Positions 1 to 8,315 of a stretch of 64,000 bases of DNA are shown here, one piece after another. This DNA comes from Streptococcus oralis (GTDB taxonomy: Bacteria > Bacillota > Bacilli > Lactobacillales > Streptococcaceae): the NCBI RefSeq assembly GCF_016028255.1, contig NZ_CP065707.1, positions 883,001 to 947,000 of the forward strand, given 5' to 3'. The notes below the pieces were generated by a model that saw nothing but the letters and a program-made list of their open reading frames with translations, made no database searches and was not told the DNA's origin. Both the position numbers and the translations under genes were made by a program. Every line of letters begins with the position of its first letter. Position 1 is the first letter of the stretch.

Positions 1-1
1 T

Positions 2-1651
2 GCTGATCAAAAAAATACAATTAGAAGCACAGAATTTGATAATCGTTTTTCAAAGAATTCTATAAATCGAATCGTTCATTTAAAAACTAAAGGTGTTATT
101 GAAAACGGTGAATTCCAAGTAACAAGTCAATATGTACCTATGATTGGAAATGAAGTATGTATTACTTCAAAAAAAGACTTAGAATTAATATATGGGATTA
201 ATAAGTCTGAGCCAACTATTTCCATTGGACAGTCAATCTTAGAAGGTCAAGTTGTTCCTTTATCGATTAATAAAATATTTGCTTCTCATATTGGTGTGTT
301 TGGGAATACTGGTAGTGGTAAGTCAAATACTTTGCATAAGTTATTCTTAGAACTCTTTCGGTCAGAATATCGAGAAAATATTTTAAAGTATTCAAAATTT
401 TATATTATTGATTTTAATGGTGAATATACGAAAGATGATAGTTTTGGTGTGGCCGGTACCCATAAAAAAGTATTTAATGTTAAAACTAGGAGTAAAACAT
501 CAAAGAAAATCCCTATTACTGAGAAATATCTTTTTGATCCAGATATCCTTTCAATTTTATTTGGCGCTTCTTCAGCAACTCAAGTTCCATTTCTTAGGAA
601 AGCAATGAAAGAGTGGAATGAAAAAGAACATACTGGAGAAGTTATTGCGAAATTTGTGGTTGGAACGTTGAAAAAAATTCTTACAACGGGAGATGCAGCA
701 TTATCTGATTCAAGGGATAATTGGATCAAAGTAGCAAAATCATACATAGCAAAAGAAAACTGGGGAATATTTATTCAAGTTTCCTCGTTAACTTATTATG
801 CAACAACAAAAGCTTATTACACTCAGGGAGAAGAACATATTTATTTAAATGATAAGTCTGATTTAACTGAACAGATAGAAAAAAAGTTACAGATAGATGA
901 AATTAGACAAGAACTTGCAGAAAGTTTTGATTCTTTGGACTTGATAGATAAATTAAAGTTCTTTTTAGATTTTCAGAAAGTTCACTATAGTACTTGGAAA
1001 TCAACTAATATTGAGCATATTAATCCTTTATTTCATAGGATTGATACAGCTCTGAATAGCTTGAAGAAAGTTGTTGAGGTTAAAGAGAGTATTGAGGGAG
1101 ATTTTTCTAGTCTAAATATTATTAATCTTGTACATGCTAATCAGGAAATCACTAGATTAATTCCTATGCTTATCTCTAAGATGATATATGATCAACAGAA
1201 AACGAAAATAGCTGGAAAAGATGTCACCTGTACTAGTCATTTGATTATTGATGAAGCACATAATATTTTAAATGCTCAGAATCATTCAGTAGGAGATACT
1301 TGGCAGGACTATAGATTAAATATTTTTGAGGAAATCATTAAGGAAGGACGAAAATTTGGTTTCTACTTAACTTTATCTAGTCAACGACCGGCCGATATTT
1401 CACCGACTATTCTTTCACAAGTTCATAATTATTTCATCCATAGATTGGTTAATGATAATGATTTACGAATGTTGCTGAATACTATGCCTACGCTGGACAA
1501 AACTTCCTTTAATAAAATTCCTAGTTTAGGTAAAGGAGAGGTTATAATTACTGGTAATGCTATTCAAGTTCCAGTATTTGTGAAAGTAGATAAAGAAGAA
1601 ATCATTAGACCGAATAGTGATGATGTTATTTTGACTGAATTGTGGAGTTGA
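2..1651 (+). CDS. HerA-family DNA-translocating ATPase, 5' end outside window
   Basis: The reading frame is already open at base 2 and runs to the TGA at 1649-1651, so the true start lies upstream and at least 549 residues are visible. The first ~50 visible residues look like the end of the small N-terminal beta-barrel (HAS-barrel) of HerA proteins. A Walker A motif GNTGSGKSNT is encoded near 301-330 and a Walker B LIIDEAHNI near 1242-1268. A later SSQRPADISPTILSQ stretch matches the conserved region after Walker B in HerA/FtsK ATPases. HerA proteins are hexameric DNA pumps used in end resection (with NurA) or as the motor of defence systems (Sir2-HerA, DUF4297-HerA). The nuclease gene starts 3 bases downstream, so the two are almost certainly co-translated. 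The coding sequence is AT-rich, unlike the core genes. The family call is secure; a defence role is inferred. Confidence 0.88.
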   Translation, partial: ADQKNTIRSTEFDNRFSKNSINRIVHLKTKGVIENGEFQVTSQYVPMIGNEVCITSKKDLELIYGINKSEPTISIGQSILEGQVVPLSINKIFASHIGVFGNTGSGKSNTLHKLFLELFRSEYRENILKYSKFYIIDFNGEYTKDDSFGVAGTHKKVFNVKTRSKTSKKIPITEKYLFDPDILSILFGASSATQVPFLRKAMKEWNEKEHTGEVIAKFVVGTLKKILTTGDAALSDSRDNWIKVAKSYIAKENWGIFIQVSSLTYYATTKAYYTQGEEHIYLNDKSDLTEQIEKKLQIDEIRQELAESFDSLDLIDKLKFFLDFQKVHYSTWKSTNIEHINPLFHRIDTALNSLKKVVEVKESIEGDFSSLNIINLVHANQEITRLIPMLISKMIYDQQKTKIAGKDVTCTSHLIIDEAHNILNAQNHSVGDTWQDYRLNIFEEIIKEGRKFGFYLTLSSQRPADISPTILSQVHNYFIHRLVNDNDLRMLLNTMPTLDKTSFNKIPSLGKGEVIITGNAIQVPVFVKVDKEEIIRPNSDDVILTELWS

Positions 1652-1654
1652 ACT

Positions 1655-2365
1655 ATGAGAAAAGAAGAAATATTTAGATTACTAGGAGTATCAGATGAAA
1701 CTGAATTGGAAAGCTTATTGGATTATAAATCAGTTGAATATGCCGATGTAATTACTGAAGAAAATTATTTTATAATTAATCGTGAAACATCTAAGTATGG
1801 AATTCCATCGATTGAACGTAGCGGATTTGATATTAAAAAACATAAGTTACTTGAATTATCAATGGATTTAAATAAGCAACCATATATTTGTGAAGCATAT
1901 CTAACTGGGGAAAGTTTGGATACTTTGGGAAGCAAGAAGAGAAAGAAATTAAAGGATCCAGTCAATTGGGAATGTGTTGCTTCAGATATATTTGCAAAAA
2001 AATATTTTCATAGAGGACATATTATTGGTCATTCATTAGCTAATGAACTTGTTAGAAATATTTATAATAAAAATAAGAAAATTTTGTTTGTTCAAACAGC
2101 ATGGAGTAATATAAACCTTCAACGTCTCAATTATTATAGTCAGTCTTATTTTGAGAATATGCTTGAAGAAATAATAAAAAATGGAAAAAATATTTTGTAT
2201 AAATCAAAATTAATTTATAAAACAAAAATTGATAAAATACCTATAGGTATTCAAATTCAAGCTATCTCTATTGATGAAGAACTGTCCATTAATGTTTTTA
2301 TTCCAAATGTTTCTCCAGGAATATCAATTGATTATACAGAAGGTAAGATAACGAGGTTAGAATGA
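1655..2365 (+). CDS. DRGH-type DNA/RNA non-specific endonuclease, cytoplasmic, partner of HerA
   Basis: This 236-residue protein carries HRGHIIGHSL at residues 119-128, followed by VQTAWSNINLQ at about 146-156. This is the His/Asn metal-dependent active site of the beta-beta-alpha-metal DNA/RNA non-specific nucleases. The C-terminal half (NYYSQSYFE, then a VFIPNVSPG-like stretch ending IDYTEGKI) follows the pattern of secreted streptococcal DNases (Spd/DNA-entry nuclease type). Here the first Asp of the DRGH signature is His, and there is no signal peptide or membrane segment, so the enzyme should act inside the cell. The first ~95 residues are not recognised and may dock on HerA. It starts 3 bases after the HerA stop, and its own stop overlaps the next start (ATGA). 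Nuclease family is well supported; role as a phage-defence effector is inferred from the HerA pairing. Confidence 0.8.
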   Translation: MRKEEIFRLLGVSDETELESLLDYKSVEYADVITEENYFIINRETSKYGIPSIERSGFDIKKHKLLELSMDLNKQPYICEAYLTGESLDTLGSKKRKKLKDPVNWECVASDIFAKKYFHRGHIIGHSLANELVRNIYNKNKKILFVQTAWSNINLQRLNYYSQSYFENMLEEIIKNGKNILYKSKLIYKTKIDKIPIGIQIQAISIDEELSINVFIPNVSPGISIDYTEGKITRLE

Positions 2366-2538
2366 TAATACAAGCAGATTTTCCAAGTATTATTTTTTCA
2401 AGATTCAATGAAGATTCGTCATGGAAATCAAAAAAATTTAAAGAATTATTAGACCCAACGGAGAGAATTAGACGAGATCCATTTGGTAGTGCTTTAAAAA
2501 AGAATATTTTGTTCAAGTGGCGAGTAAGTTGTTTATGA
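2362..2538 (+). CDS. Short ORF coupled to the nuclease gene, probably truncated
   Basis: The ATG at 2362 overlaps the nuclease stop in an ATGA arrangement, and the frame stays open for 58 residues before TGA at 2536-2538. The predicted product (starting MIIQADFPSIIFSRF) has no recognisable motif, signal peptide or membrane segment. The tight coupling suggests that a third gene of the HerA operon began here. Its length and the non-coding, degenerate-looking DNA that follows suggest that only the 5' part remains. It could equally be a genuine small protein. Confidence 0.45.
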   Translation: MIIQADFPSIIFSRFNEDSSWKSKKFKELLDPTERIRRDPFGSALKKNILFKWRVSCL

Positions 2539-2732
2539 AGAGTAAAGTGGGACTTACTGCCTCTTTATGCGTTTATGCGCTACTGCGGAAGACTATCTTG
2601 AAAAGAAATAGTGACTCAACTACTCAATGACCTCAATAGCATTCGAGATAGCAAGTACCGTCTCATTTCTAGTAAGCAAGAAAGAAAAAGGTCAAACCAG
2701 AAGAATCAGCCCAGTATAAGGATATGGACAAA
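2539..2732 (+). other. Degenerate DNA after the HerA operon
   Basis: There is no intact gene between 2539 and the next CDS at 2840. A short frame around 2605-2735 reads EIVTQLLNDLNSIRDSKYRL and continues with a basic tail, but has no start or ribosome binding site and is interrupted upstream. It looks like the 3' remnant of an unidentified gene, consistent with a recombination scar between the HerA operon and the type I modification genes. Confidence 0.4.
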
Positions 2733-2839: not shown

Positions 2840-3877
2840 ATGGGTTTATCTAATATTGAAATAAAAAAGGAGTTATCTAGGCGGTTCCAAGAAGCTAGAA
2901 AGAAGTCTAGACCTCAGACATGTTTACTATGCAAGAAGCCACTTACTAAACTTTGCAACTCACATTCAGTTCCTCAATTTGTCTTAAAACATTTGGCTGA
3001 GAATGGAAAAATTATGCAGTCAAGTTCACTAATGTCTTTTGAAGATATAGATTTATTTGAAATTGAAAAAGGAGTGAACAATTCTGGAATCTTTAAATTT
3101 ATATGTCATTCTTGTGATAATGAATTCTTTAATGACTATGAATCTGAAGAAGCATTGTTAGGGGAAATTTCAGATAAAATGTTAGCTGAAATTGCTCTGA
3201 AAAATGGATTGATGAATGTTTCAAAGCGAAGCCAAGAAGTAAAATTATATAGTTCTCTTCCAGAAAGAATAATTGGTATTGACGATATGATAGATTTGTA
3301 TAGTTTAGATTTAAGAGATTTTCTTCAAGAAGTGGAAGTTCATAAGCGAGAAATTTTAAATAATACAAAAGGTGCATATCAAATCGTGTTTAAAGAGATT
3401 CTCCCATTTGTGGTTCCTATTGCTACACAAGTAGCTATTACACTACAAGATGATATGTATGGGTATCCCGTAAATGATGTTTTTAATCCTGATCCAAAAG
3501 TCAGTATGCAAGATCTGCATCTGGTCATTTTCCCTTTTAAAAAATCATCTCTTGTTTTAGCTTTTTATCATAAAAAAGACAAAAATTATAGAACTCTAAG
3601 ACATCAGTTTAATAGCGAAAATTCTAAAAAAACCAAAGAATTTTTAAATTATCTTGTATTTGCCTACACAGAAAATTTTTTTATTTCAAAAACAATTTAT
3701 GAAAAAATTCAAAATAATAAAAAACTAATCCAGCTAAGTCGTGAATTGTATCAGAAACCTAATCTTGGAAATTTAAGTATGTATGATTTTTTTAATTTGA
3801 AATATGAACCGGTAAAGCCAGACGAAATTCCCAATTTCTTAACAAAAGACTGGGCACTAGGAGAAAATAATGAGTAA
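2840..3877 (+). CDS. HNH/treble-clef-like zinc-binding protein of unknown function
   Basis: This 345-residue protein has CLLC at residues 28-31, then NSHSVPQF around 40-47, and CHSCDNEFF around 89-97. The CxxC...SH.xP...CxxCD pattern is that of treble-clef HNH-type domains, with two Cys pairs to hold a zinc and an SH motif at the catalytic position. The rest (about 100-345) is not recognised and has no membrane segment. A GAGAGG ribosome binding site lies about 7 bases before the ATG. Its stop overlaps the hsdS start by 8 bases, so it belongs to the modification operon rather than to the HerA operon. It could be a restriction-type nuclease working with, or in place of, HsdR; that is inference only. 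The gene is AT-rich, like the HerA genes. Confidence 0.6.
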   Translation: MGLSNIEIKKELSRRFQEARKKSRPQTCLLCKKPLTKLCNSHSVPQFVLKHLAENGKIMQSSSLMSFEDIDLFEIEKGVNNSGIFKFICHSCDNEFFNDYESEEALLGEISDKMLAEIALKNGLMNVSKRSQEVKLYSSLPERIIGIDDMIDLYSLDLRDFLQEVEVHKREILNNTKGAYQIVFKEILPFVVPIATQVAITLQDDMYGYPVNDVFNPDPKVSMQDLHLVIFPFKKSSLVLAFYHKKDKNYRTLRHQFNSENSKKTKEFLNYLVFAYTENFFISKTIYEKIQNNKKLIQLSRELYQKPNLGNLSMYDFFNLKYEPVKPDEIPNFLTKDWALGENNE

Positions 3878-5021
3878 AAACAGTATTCCCAAAATTAGGT
3901 TTAACAATTTTAAAGCTTTTTGGGTAGAAAAAAAAATTGCAGATATAGTCAAAATATCTGCTGGTGGTGATGTAGATAAAGAAAGATTGAAGCAAAGTGG
4001 AAAATATCCTGTTATTGCAAATGCTTTGACAAACAAAGGAATCGTTGGCTTTTATGACGATTATAAAGTGAAAGCTCCTGCAGTGACTGTTACAGGTCGT
4101 GGGGATGTTGGATATGCTGTAGCAAGACATGAAAATTTTACACCAGTTGTTAGACTTCTAACTCTTCAATCAGATAGTATTGATATGGACTATCTTGAAA
4201 ATCAGATTAATTCTATGAAAATTTTAAATGAGTCTACGGGTGTTCCTCAATTGACAGCTCCTCAACTTGGGAACTATAAAGTGTATCGTCCTGAAATTGA
4301 CGAACAATCCGCCATAGGTTCTCTTTTCCGCACCCTCGACGACCTTCTAGCGAGTTACAAGGACAATCTCACCAACTACCAATCTCTCAAGGCAACCATG
4401 CTCTCCAAGATGTTTCCCAAAGCTGGGCAGACTATTCCTGAGATTCGTTTAGATGGATTTGAAAGAAAATGGGAGAAAAAAAAGTTAATAGACTTAGTAT
4501 CGCCAGTGTCCAGAAAAGTAAAAAAACCCTCCGATCCTTACTATAGGTTATCGATTCGCTCACATGCTAAAGGTACCTTTAAACAATTTGTTGATGATCC
4601 TAAGAAAATTGCAATGGATAATTTATTCGAAGTTAAAGAGAATGATTTGGTTGTAAATATTACATTTGCTTGGGAACATGCGATTGCTGTAGCTAGTAAA
4701 GAAGATGATGGTTTATTGGTTTCTCATAGGTTTCCGACATTTGTAATTGATAAATCTGATAAGAATTTCATTAATATTTATATTAAGAGAGAAGAGTTTA
4801 GACAAAAGTTGGATTTGCTATCACCGGGTGGAGCAGGACGAAACAGAGTTTTAAATGTAAAAGATTTTATTAAGATTCAAATGATAGTTCCAGAATTGGA
4901 AGAACAACAAGCCATCGGCTCCTATTTCTCAAACCTAGATAACCTCATCAACTCTTGCCAAGAAAAAATCACTCAGCTAGAAACTTTGAAAAAGAAACTC
5001 TTGCAGGATATGTTTATCTAG
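3870..5021 (+). CDS. hsdS: Type I restriction-modification specificity subunit HsdS
   Basis: This 383-residue protein has the HsdS layout: first target-recognition domain (about 1-150), central conserved helices (DEQSAIGSLFRTLDDLLASY, about 143-162), second recognition domain (about 190-345) and a second conserved helix (EEQQAIGSYFSNLDNL) near the C-terminus. The two conserved blocks are repeats of each other, as expected. The recognition domains are AT-rich while the conserved blocks use GC-richer codons, as in hsdS genes that exchange recognition domains. It overlaps the upstream HNH-like gene by 8 bases and lies 53 bases before hsdM. The S-before-M order with no R gene in the window is unusual. 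The recognition sequence cannot be read from this. Confidence 0.93.
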   Translation: MSKNSIPKIRFNNFKAFWVEKKIADIVKISAGGDVDKERLKQSGKYPVIANALTNKGIVGFYDDYKVKAPAVTVTGRGDVGYAVARHENFTPVVRLLTLQSDSIDMDYLENQINSMKILNESTGVPQLTAPQLGNYKVYRPEIDEQSAIGSLFRTLDDLLASYKDNLTNYQSLKATMLSKMFPKAGQTIPEIRLDGFERKWEKKKLIDLVSPVSRKVKKPSDPYYRLSIRSHAKGTFKQFVDDPKKIAMDNLFEVKENDLVVNITFAWEHAIAVASKEDDGLLVSHRFPTFVIDKSDKNFINIYIKREEFRQKLDLLSPGGAGRNRVLNVKDFIKIQMIVPELEEQQAIGSYFSNLDNLINSCQEKITQLETLKKKLLQDMFI

Positions 5022-5074: not shown

Positions 5075-6676
5075 ATGGAAACAACACAAACTTCCCAGTC
5101 GCTCTATCAAGCCCTGTGGAACTCAGCGGATGTTCTCCGCTCTAAGATGGATGCTAATGACTATAAGTCCTATCTTTTGGGTATGGTCTTTTATAAGTAT
5201 CTGTCAGACAAGATGCTCTTTTTCGTGGCGGAGACTATGGAAGAGGGGAGTGAGAGCCTAGAGGCTGCCCTTGTGGTCTATCGCAACTACTATGAGGATG
5301 CGGACACCCACGAGGATCTTCTTGCAGTTATGAAGGACGAACTCAACTATAGTATCAAGCCTGACTTGACCTTTACGGCTCTTGTAGCACGTGTCAATGA
5401 GGGGACTTTCCAGCTGGAAGATTTGGCTCAGGGTTTTCGAGATATTGAGCAGAGTGACGAACTCTATGAAAATCTCTTTGAAGATATCGACCTCTACTCT
5501 AAAAAGCTAGGGGCAACTCCGCAAAAGCAAAACCAAACGGTGGCGGCGGTCATGAAAGAGTTGGCAGTGCTGGATGTGGCTGGTCATGCAGGCGATATGC
5601 TGGGGGATGCTTATGAGTATCTGATCGGTCAGTTTGCGACTGACTCGGGTAAGAAGGCTGGAGAGTTCTATACGCCGCAGCCTGTTGCCAAACTCATGAC
5701 TCAGATTGCCTTTTTGGGTCGTGAGGACCAGCAAGGCTTTACCATCTATGATGCGACCATGGGATCTGGCTCTCTCTTGCTCAATGCCAAGAAATACTCT
5801 CATAAACCGCAGACAGTGGTCTACTTCGGTCAGGAGCTCAATACCTCGACCTATAACCTAGCTCGGATGAACATGATTCTACACGGTGTTCCAGTTGAGA
5901 ATCAATTTCTACACAATGCCGATACACTGGATGAAGACTGGCCGACTCAAGAGCCGACCAACTTTGACGGTGTTCTCATGAACCCGCCGTATTCTGCTAA
6001 GTGGTCAGCAAGCTCTGGCTTTATGGCGGACCCTCGTTTCTCTCCTTTTGGGAAACTGGCGCCCCAGTCCAAGGCTGACTTTGCCTTTCTCTTGCATGGG
6101 TATTACCACCTCAAGCAGGATAATGGGGTTATGGCTATCGTCCTTCCTCACGGTGTTCTTTTCCGTGGAAATGCGGAGGGCACCATTCGTAAGGCCTTGC
6201 TAGAAGAAGGGGCCATTGATACGGTTATCGGTCTACCTGCCAATATCTTCTTTAATACCAGCATTCCGACCACGGTTATCATTCTCAAAAAGAATCGTAC
6301 CAATCGTGATGTCTACTTTATCGATGCTTCTAAGGAGTTTGATAAAGGGAAAAACCAGAATATCATGACGGATGTTCATATCGAGAAGATTCTGGAAGCC
6401 TACAAGTCTCGTGAGGAGATTGATAAGTTTGCCCACCTAGCAAGCTATGAAGATATCGTCGAAAATGACTATAACCTCAATATCCCTCGCTATGTAGATA
6501 CCTTTGAGGAAGAAGAAGTAGAGCCACTGACAGATATCGTCAGCAAGATTAACGAGACAAATAAAGCTATCGAAAGTCAAACAGCTTCTTTACTTGACAT
6601 GCTGAACCAACTCCACGGAACCACACCAGAAGCCGATGCTGAACTTAAACAGTTTTTGGAAAAATTTAAAGGGTGA
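5075..6676 (+). CDS. hsdM: Type I restriction-modification DNA methyltransferase HsdM
   Basis: The 533-residue protein has the N-terminal helical domain of HsdM, an S-adenosylmethionine-binding motif DATMGSGSLLL (from about residue 226) and the N6-adenine methyltransferase catalytic motif NPPY (about 303-306). Length is normal for the family. Codon use is clearly GC-richer than in the upstream HerA and HNH-like genes, so the methylase belongs to an older resident locus. With HsdS alone it can form a working methyltransferase; restriction would need an HsdR, which is not encoded in this window. The gene starts after an AGAAAG ribosome binding site and ends before a separate transcription unit. 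Confidence 0.95.
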   Translation: METTQTSQSLYQALWNSADVLRSKMDANDYKSYLLGMVFYKYLSDKMLFFVAETMEEGSESLEAALVVYRNYYEDADTHEDLLAVMKDELNYSIKPDLTFTALVARVNEGTFQLEDLAQGFRDIEQSDELYENLFEDIDLYSKKLGATPQKQNQTVAAVMKELAVLDVAGHAGDMLGDAYEYLIGQFATDSGKKAGEFYTPQPVAKLMTQIAFLGREDQQGFTIYDATMGSGSLLLNAKKYSHKPQTVVYFGQELNTSTYNLARMNMILHGVPVENQFLHNADTLDEDWPTQEPTNFDGVLMNPPYSAKWSASSGFMADPRFSPFGKLAPQSKADFAFLLHGYYHLKQDNGVMAIVLPHGVLFRGNAEGTIRKALLEEGAIDTVIGLPANIFFNTSIPTTVIILKKNRTNRDVYFIDASKEFDKGKNQNIMTDVHIEKILEAYKSREEIDKFAHLASYEDIVENDYNLNIPRYVDTFEEEEVEPLTDIVSKINETNKAIESQTASLLDMLNQLHGTTPEADAELKQFLEKFKG

Positions 6677-7644: not shown

Positions 7645-7666
7645 TTAATTAGAAAGAGGCTACTTG

Positions 7667-8032
7667 GTGCATACGATTTACTTCTATAAGGACAAAAATG
7701 GAAATGAGCCAGTCTTAGATTATATGAGACAATTGGCTAGAAAGAAGAGTAAGGACAGTCGCATCAAACTCAATAAACTAAACGACTATATCGAGTTGCT
7801 TAGTCAGCATGGGACTAGAACTGGTGAACCCTATATCAAACATTTGGAAGATGAGATTTGGGAACTACGACCTCTTAAGGATAGGATTTTATTTGTAGCA
7901 TGGGTTGATGGGAGTTTTGTTCTTTTACATCATTTTGTTAAAAAGACTCAGAAAACTCCTAGGAGAGAGATTGATAAATCCAAGCGTGAACTGAAGGACA
8001 TAAAAGAAAGAGGGTTAAGTGATGAAGAATAG
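7667..8032 (+). CDS. higB: HigB-like (Gp49/RelE-superfamily) toxin
   Basis: The 121-residue protein has the phage-derived Gp49-like/HigB pattern: YKDKNGNEPVLDYM near the N-terminus, IKHLEDEIWELRPLKDRILF in the middle and LLHHFVKKTQKTPRREI towards the end. These proteins are ribosome-dependent mRNA interferases of the RelE fold. The start is taken as GTG at 7667, 7 bases after an AAGAGG ribosome binding site; a TTG at 7664 is an alternative. The toxin gene precedes and overlaps its antitoxin gene, the usual HigBA order. Confidence 0.85.
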   Translation: MHTIYFYKDKNGNEPVLDYMRQLARKKSKDSRIKLNKLNDYIELLSQHGTRTGEPYIKHLEDEIWELRPLKDRILFVAWVDGSFVLLHHFVKKTQKTPRREIDKSKRELKDIKERGLSDEE

Positions 8033-8315
8033 TGCCATTGGAAGTAATTGGAAGGATATCCGAACAGAACTCTTTACCAAGGAAGAAATTCTTGAAAGTG
8101 ATATGCGAGTGGCTATTATGAGTGAGTTGATTGAGGCTAGACATGAGCAAGGTATCAGTCAGAAAAAGCTAGAGGAACTCAGTGGAGTAAGCCAGCCTGT
8201 CATAGCTAGGATGGAAACAGGAAAGACTAGTCCTCAGTTGGATACAGTCTTGAAAGTTCTAGCCAGTTTAGGAAAGACACTAGCAGTCGTCCCACTAGAA
8301 CAGGAAAAAAATTGA
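8022..8315 (+). CDS. higA: HigA-like XRE-family antitoxin
   Basis: This 97-residue protein has a helix-turn-helix of the XRE/Cro type (ARHEQGISQKKLEELSGVSQ then a PVIARMETGKTSPQLDT segment) in its second half. Such antitoxins bind and block HigB and repress the operon. The ATG at 8022 sits 7 bases after AGAGGG; GTG at 8019 is an alternative. It overlaps the toxin gene by 11 bases. No transposase or integrase neighbours it. Confidence 0.85.
   Translation: MKNSAIGSNWKDIRTELFTKEEILESDMRVAIMSELIEARHEQGISQKKLEELSGVSQPVIARMETGKTSPQLDTVLKVLASLGKTLAVVPLEQEKN

Follow-up and report, generated by a model that had tools for sequence, protein, structure and literature searches.

An EndA-like nuclease gene as probable exchangeable cargo behind sir2-herA in a type I restriction operon of Streptococcus oralis

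Which protein works with the HerA-type ATPase encoded at the left edge of a 64,000-nucleotide stretch of the Streptococcus oralis genome? The window, meaning this whole stretch, covers bases 883001-947000 of a 2.02 Mb single-contig genome (NZ_CP065707.1), and the operon in question runs past its left edge. A sequence-only reading of the window proposed that HerA and the nuclease encoded directly behind it form a new pair, and called for an upstream extension. The extension gave the full herA gene and a preceding sir2; HerA without a partner was a window-edge artefact that is now corrected. The nuclease gene, nuc, is probably an extra anti-phage or suicide nuclease rather than HerA's defining partner, carried as the exchangeable third gene behind sir2-herA in a type I restriction-modification (R-M) operon.

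All operon genes lie on the + strand in the order hsdR, sir2, herA, nuc, hsdS remnant, 345-amino acid (aa) open reading frame (ORF), hsdS and hsdM. L002 coordinates refer to the fetched stretch that includes bases upstream of the window (L002:16655-17365 is window 1655-2365). Upstream of the window, hsdR (L002:10694-13708, 1004 aa, PADLOC REase_I E = 7e-163) is separated by 34 nucleotides (nt) from sir2 (L002:13743-14807, 354 aa, PADLOC SIR2 E = 3e-157), which lies just outside the window. The full herA gene (L002:14804-16651, 615 aa) has its first 197 nt upstream of the window and its 3' part at window 1..1651, where the frame is open from base 2 to 1651. HerA is already partnered because sir2 overlaps the start of herA by 4 nt, which was revealed beyond the window edge. 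As first described, the nuclease ORF (window 1655..2365, 236 aa) stands 3 nt behind herA, with the herA stop at 1651 and the nuc ATG at 1655.

The HerA-type motor was confirmed by Walker A (GNTGSGKS) and Walker B (LIIDEAH) motifs and by matches to Pfam DUF87 (E = 6e-15) and PADLOC HerA PDLC04097 (E = 6e-262 for the window piece and 5e-294 for the full protein). The best solved match of HerA is 8yho_A/8yhx and that of SIR2 is 8yhx_G, 8yhx being common to both. The SIR2 motifs TTNYD (from residue 130) and HGS (from residue 195) aligned with the SIR2 chains 8yhx_G and 8w9l_A; we take the TTNYD asparagine to be NAD-binding and the HGS histidine to be catalytic. Scores fell below the NCBIfam equivalog cutoffs (HerA_antiphage, 140 of 800 bits with the 549-aa window piece; SIR2_antiphage, 58 of 500 bits), which places SIR2 and HerA on a divergent branch by these models, and the models were not used as defining the system. 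A housekeeping HerA-NurA was set aside as the coupled neighbor is SIR2 and the window piece scored 140 bits with the antiphage model versus 95-99 bits with the repair-HerA models (cutoffs 800-970), a judgement made by profile scores only, with no HerA tree. No NurA-like protein was present among the neighbors run through Pfam, and no search aimed at NurA was made.

By these features HerA is assigned to the known SIR2-HerA system (Gao_19/Nezha), located in a type I operon between its hsdR and hsdS genes. The likeness extends to the overlap of sir2 with herA, the intact SIR2 and Walker motifs, and the PADLOC SIR2/HerA and 8yhx matches. By homology, SIR2-HerA most likely works here as described, with a HerA ring and SIR2 subunits, phage-triggered NAD+ depletion and a stop to the infection. 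The accessible text of PMC11514479 places S. thermophilus SIR2-HerA between or downstream of R/M systems, and the parts available of this report and of PMC12322248 describe phage protection by S. thermophilus SIR2-HerA homologues. The published streptococcal systems, as far as these partial sources describe them, are gene pairs, unlike the arrangement in three genomes of the present set, where an EndA-like nuclease gene follows herA.

HerA was detected in 12 of 295 family genomes at E ≤ 1e-30 and in 13 of 395 order genomes at E ≤ 1e-60, 9 of these 13 lying outside the 12 family genomes. A sir2 gene is directly upstream of herA in all 12 family loci and in 7 of the 9 further order loci, hence in 19/21 Lactobacillales loci; G384 (broken herA) and G578 (contig edge) were not assessable. 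Two ORFs make up sir2 in G358 and herA in G105. Behind herA, the nuclease gene is present in 3 of the 21 loci, all three of them among the 12 family loci (the S. oralis genome, G160 and G054), each time with the 3-nt gap. The proposed new HerA-nuclease pair did not survive these counts and the finding of nuclease relatives without HerA. Conserved co-occurrence is largely lacking: the nuclease is absent from 9/12 family HerA loci and recurs in two other genomes. A scan of genome contigs returned one locus, in S. parasanguinis S32, with the layout of G054.

The nuclease itself was identified by homology. Its product matched EndA (3owv, E = 2e-15) and NucA (4qgo, E = 5e-13) in phmmer, and a profile from five nuc relatives matched NucA at 1e-23. 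PF01223 did not match the nuc product at E ≤ 1, and the G087 nuclease relative scored 17.8 bits against the PF01223 cutoff of 23. Foldseek of the AlphaFold2 model returned EndA/NucA with E ~1e-11, TM ~0.6 and rmsd 5-7 Å. Mean pLDDT was 62.9 with a 16-sequence alignment and 61.6 with 7 sequences, and fell below 50 at residues 46-73 and most of 92-144, HRGH motif included; the modeled fold is identifiable and the modeled active-site geometry is unreliable. The motif is FHRGH (residues 118-122) with H122 as the catalytic candidate, and R120, G121, H122, N152 and E167 are invariant across 16 aligned nuclease sequences. The sequence-only reading had named a DRGH-family nuclease; its catalytic candidate H122 stands, while the motif is HRGH. 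HRGH is present in 6/6 intact signal-less proteins, and the 10 longer EndA-like relatives read DRGH (9) or NRGH (1). SPD1 likewise reads NRGH in its phmmer alignment, so the first motif position varies among known nucleases.

The absence of a signal peptide was upheld. The nuc N terminus has no hydrophobic segment, the maximum 17-residue Kyte-Doolittle value being 0.55 in the first 60 residues, and the maximum N-terminal hydropathy was 0.52-1.16 in signal-less relatives versus 1.69-2.40 in the longer EndA-like proteins (five of each measured). The nuc product appears to be a cytoplasmic EndA/NucA-like protein with presumptive nuclease activity. It resembles the EndA/NucA DNA-entry nucleases in sequence, predicted fold and the R-G-H plus downstream Asn, and differs in the missing signal peptide or membrane anchor, in HRGH for DRGH/NRGH and in the location of the family, which six genus genomes encode in type I restriction operons. 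The nuc query matched 258/295 family genomes at E ≤ 1e-5, and among the matches listed most were partial, to EndA-like frames of 270-320 aa; the S. oralis genome itself holds an EndA-like paralogue in a 295-aa frame (38% identical). A phage origin of nuc was unsupported: the viral-contig scan gave 8 pattern matches, none confirmed as a nuc relative, and 11 phage records contained partial matches to nuc only, at 25-31%.

A competence-type nuclease that had lost its export signal could also be carried along neutrally and decay. In G022 the gene is split into two ORFs, the distribution is patchy (6/284 genus genomes), and nuc is under weaker selection than herA in comparison with the G160 copies (dN/dS 0.123/0.401 = 0.31 for nuc versus 0.132/0.724 = 0.18 for herA). 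Both ratios are well below 1, which shows purifying selection on nuc. With catalytic residues invariant, 5/6 genus copies full length, and HRGH common to all six intact signal-less proteins aligned, neutral carriage is very unlikely.

The six genus copies were recovered at E ≤ 1e-32; three lie behind HerA and three (G091, G087, G022) occur without it, all three genomes being absent from the HerA set at E ≤ 1e-30. The nuclease of the latter is in another type I operon, with hsdR, hsdM, an hsdS-like gene (by eye) and genes for 355-aa and 462-aa proteins. These two proteins precede the nuclease in all three loci (L058:4662-7114, L057:8811-11263, L059:8594-11046); the L058 pair had no Pfam or NCBIfam match, and hydrophobic stretches are visible by eye in the C-terminal portion of the 462-aa protein. 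Signal-less EndA-like nucleases with HRGH form a small family tied to type I operons, and with it comes the question of how a general nuclease is kept silent in the cytoplasm of its own cell.

A general HerA+EndA association beyond streptococci was not found in the order genomes or in the plasmid regions opened. There was no link outside streptococci in the regions of the 9 further order genomes, none on plasmids in the 3 regions opened of 30 HerA plasmids, and no HerA near nuclease relatives around the 5 opened of 8 plasmids. On an E. faecium HerA plasmid the upstream gene is annotated as hypothetical, its SIR2 status unchecked, and an L. fermentum plasmid has an unchecked 'ATP-binding protein' ~1.4 kb downstream of its nuclease relative.

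The gene following herA varies among the 12 family loci: nuc in 3, a second SIR2 (SIR2b) in 4 (G289, G262, G156, G110), PDC-S50/AlbA_2 in 1 (G277), an Abi_2 protein in 1 (G173), and nothing or an hsdS-like piece in 3 (G258, G060, G105; the G060 piece by eye). Pairwise alignments located the switch. G054 and G156 share 94.3% DNA identity over sir2-herA, from -1058 to +1857 with the herA ATG as reference; the shared stretch ends 13 nt beyond the stop codon of G054 herA, where nuc follows in G054 and SIR2b in G156. The window and G277 are 91.1% identical to 27 nt past the herA stop, followed by nuc and AlbA_2, respectively. Between the window and G054, identity of 87.5% extends across the 3' end of herA, nuc and the beginning of hsdS. 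The SIR2 alleles are mixed, a window-type allele (88-91% identical) occurring with nuc, AlbA_2 and SIR2b and a 55% type with nuc and SIR2b. In these alignments the third gene is exchanged within ~30 nt of the herA stop. The nuclease is read as cargo rather than HerA's defining partner because near-identical sir2-herA precede different genes and because the nuclease and SIR2b occur without HerA. SIR2b was present in 5/279 genus genomes, in four with HerA and in one (G096) between hsdR and hsdS without HerA. The SIR2b proteins (L047:8456-9829, L123:7427-8797) are 456-457 aa long, with an N-terminal half that is ThsA/PDC-S25-like.

The same loci bear on a three-part SIR2-HerA-NUC machine, in which the HerA ring would recruit and activate the nuclease as a second effector beside SIR2, in the manner of DUF4297. 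The 3-nt herA-nuc spacing in all three HerA-linked copies fits such a machine, as does the presence of some protein gene at the post-herA place in 9/12 family loci. A lone cytoplasmic nuclease would presumably be dangerous and need control, and DUF4297 alone is, in the portion of PMC11291478 available, ~300-fold less active than its HerA complex. Unrelated proteins behind near-identical HerA bodies, relatives of two third-gene types found without HerA, and 9/12 family HerA loci without the nuclease argue against it and make it rather unlikely. HerA-DUF4297 is also a HerA ring and a nuclease in one operon. Its nuclease is PD-(D/E)xK and HerA's partner in a two-gene system (PMC11291478, same portion), whereas in the present operon SIR2 partners HerA and the nuclease is of the EndA-like HRGH kind. 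A distinctly unlikely variant gives streptococcal SIR2-HerA an open third-subunit position, with HerA as the platform and the next gene as a swappable effector (EndA-like, ThsA-like SIR2, AlbA_2 or Abi_2); if true, one sensor-motor would have several interchangeable outputs.

The cargo reading can be set against the R-M operon itself. The type I R-M locus recognized in the sequence-only reading is present, and the genes lie inside it, not beside it, as hsdR is upstream of sir2. The AT richness noted earlier was also verified: G+C is 26.6-30.7% across sir2, herA (30.7%), nuc (26.6%), the hsdS remnant ORF and the 345-aa ORF, versus 43.9% for hsdR, 46.6% for hsdM and 41.1% for the window. The low G+C of the sir2/herA/nuc block versus hsdR/hsdM is what cargo inside a resident operon would show. 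Both hsdR and hsdS surround sir2-herA in 6/12 family loci (this genome, G277, G289, G160, G054, G156); in G110 the upstream part of the locus is missing at the end of the contig.

An hsdR search covering 54 relatives gave matches in 17 genomes, one of them the S. oralis genome itself; 12 of the rest were examined, and G295, G297, G303 and G308 were not; G096 was chosen among the 12 for its SIR2b. hsdS is downstream of hsdR in 9/12 (G089 ends at a contig edge, and G296 and G299 have no following hsdS), and the interval between the two genes holds ORFs of 80 aa or more in 8/9, all but G183. Defense matches were obtained in 5 of the 9 gaps: AbiP2 and a 4TM effector in G141, where hsdR is in two ORFs; a retron-type RT in G042; AbiH in G134 and G102; and SIR2b in G096, scanned via its 75% identical homologue L047. 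The G252 gap gave a weak SIR2 match (E = 5e-4). A 747-aa protein in G090 (L142:8046-10286) matched nothing in Pfam, PADLOC or NCBIfam, and G628 has an 896-aa DUF4062 protein (L144:6723-9410) for which PADLOC gave no match; both are candidate new defense genes. The hsdR-hsdS gap thus behaves as a defense cargo slot, and nuc is among its less known tenants. The sample of nine loci is small, and the AbiH loci of G134 and G102 may be related to each other. Such a slot, in which the third gene is swapped just past the end of herA, makes a compact and testable arrangement.

Downstream, nuc overlaps by 4 nt an hsdS 5'-end remnant (window 2362..2556). The remnant is 195 nt long and aligns at 87% identity with the initial 197 nt of hsdS in G054 and G160, the two nearest loci, where hsdS is full length and has a 4-nt overlap with nuc. 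The short coupled third ORF described before is real (2362-2538, 58 aa, with the 4-nt overlap) and represents truncated hsdS. A narrower form of the cargo reading would have the nuclease watch the type I enzyme and be freed when a phage anti-restriction protein inactivates that enzyme. The nuclease occurs in two different type I R-M operon families, the 4-nt overlap joins it to hsdS in G054/G160 and to the remnant in the window, and PrrC offers a precedent (PMC12707154, in the sections available). Against this, the intact hsdS of the window begins 1.5 kb further on, and any binding to HsdR/M/S would be hypothetical. Such a guard function is possible but doubtful.

Several observations weigh against nuc as exchangeable cargo of the R-M operon, and the first two of them weigh also against the guard. 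The nuc-coupled hsdS in the window is truncated, and a G063 HRGH relative (E = 1e-27) adjoins no hsd gene, with no hsd match within the surrounding 16 kb. sir2-herA lies outside the hsdR-hsdS layout in 5/12 family loci (G262, G258, G060, G173, G105). The HerA-linked nucleases are 77 to >99% identical among themselves and keep a constant 3-nt spacing, as expected of a co-adapted subunit. At only ~34% identity, the HerA-free nucleases may be a different functional type, and a HerA-specific nuclease branch is possible from these identities. The linkage rests on about two lineages, as G054 and G160 are close (NUC dN 0.002). A signal-less EndA-like protein with HRGH (L105:7033-7743) is encoded directly upstream of a probable valyl-tRNA synthetase gene, after which come a probable DNA methyltransferase and an ORF of GHKL type (all three assigned by eye).

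What the sequences show is the order and close spacing of the genes, the conservation of catalytic residues, purifying selection and the exchange of the third gene; the cargo reading goes beyond this as follows. An hsdR...hsdS-hsdM operon would carry low-G+C cargo, sir2-herA plus a third gene, between hsdR and hsdS. The third gene would have been acquired independently and would borrow the transcription and translation of the operon, presumably by co-transcription. The nuclease would be silent in the uninfected cell and would cut cytoplasmic nucleic acid once infection releases or activates it, and a phage block of restriction, as with PrrC, may be the trigger. PrrC is likewise a nuclease whose gene lies inside a type I R-M locus (EcoprrI), and it differs in being a tRNA-Lys anticodon nuclease that is not EndA-like (PMC12707154, same sections). 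An EndA-like nuclease in SIR2-HerA or in the streptococcal hsdR-hsdS slot was not found in the literature searched, which was seen in part and excluded all bioRxiv preprints and most subscription papers. The S. suis variable defense locus is at another site, between rpiA and trmE, in the text available of PMC5398294. SIR2-HerA itself and embedded nucleases (PrrC) were already known.

The remainder of the operon follows the hsdS remnant. The 345-aa ORF (window 2840..3877, +, G+C 29%) had no family match: none in Pfam at cutoff, none in PADLOC at E ≤ 1 and none in NCBIfam better than E = 0.17. CxxC and HSVP stretches are visible by eye near its N terminus, and it is possibly a further cargo gene. 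The intact hsdS (window 3870..5021, +) encodes the type I R-M specificity subunit; its BLASTP relatives adjoin hsdM in related loci, and its central and 3' segments have 85-88% DNA identity to the G054/G160 hsdS. hsdM (window 5075..6676, +) encodes the methylase subunit and is 72-97% identical to HsdM of related streptococcal loci. A promoter/terminator scan gave hits no more numerous than in shuffled sequence. Downstream of hsdM, a HigB/RelE-like toxin and HTH antitoxin pair was recognized by eye at window 7664-8315, and ORFs resembling them are seen again close to hsdM or metE in several relatives (L049, L057, L123).

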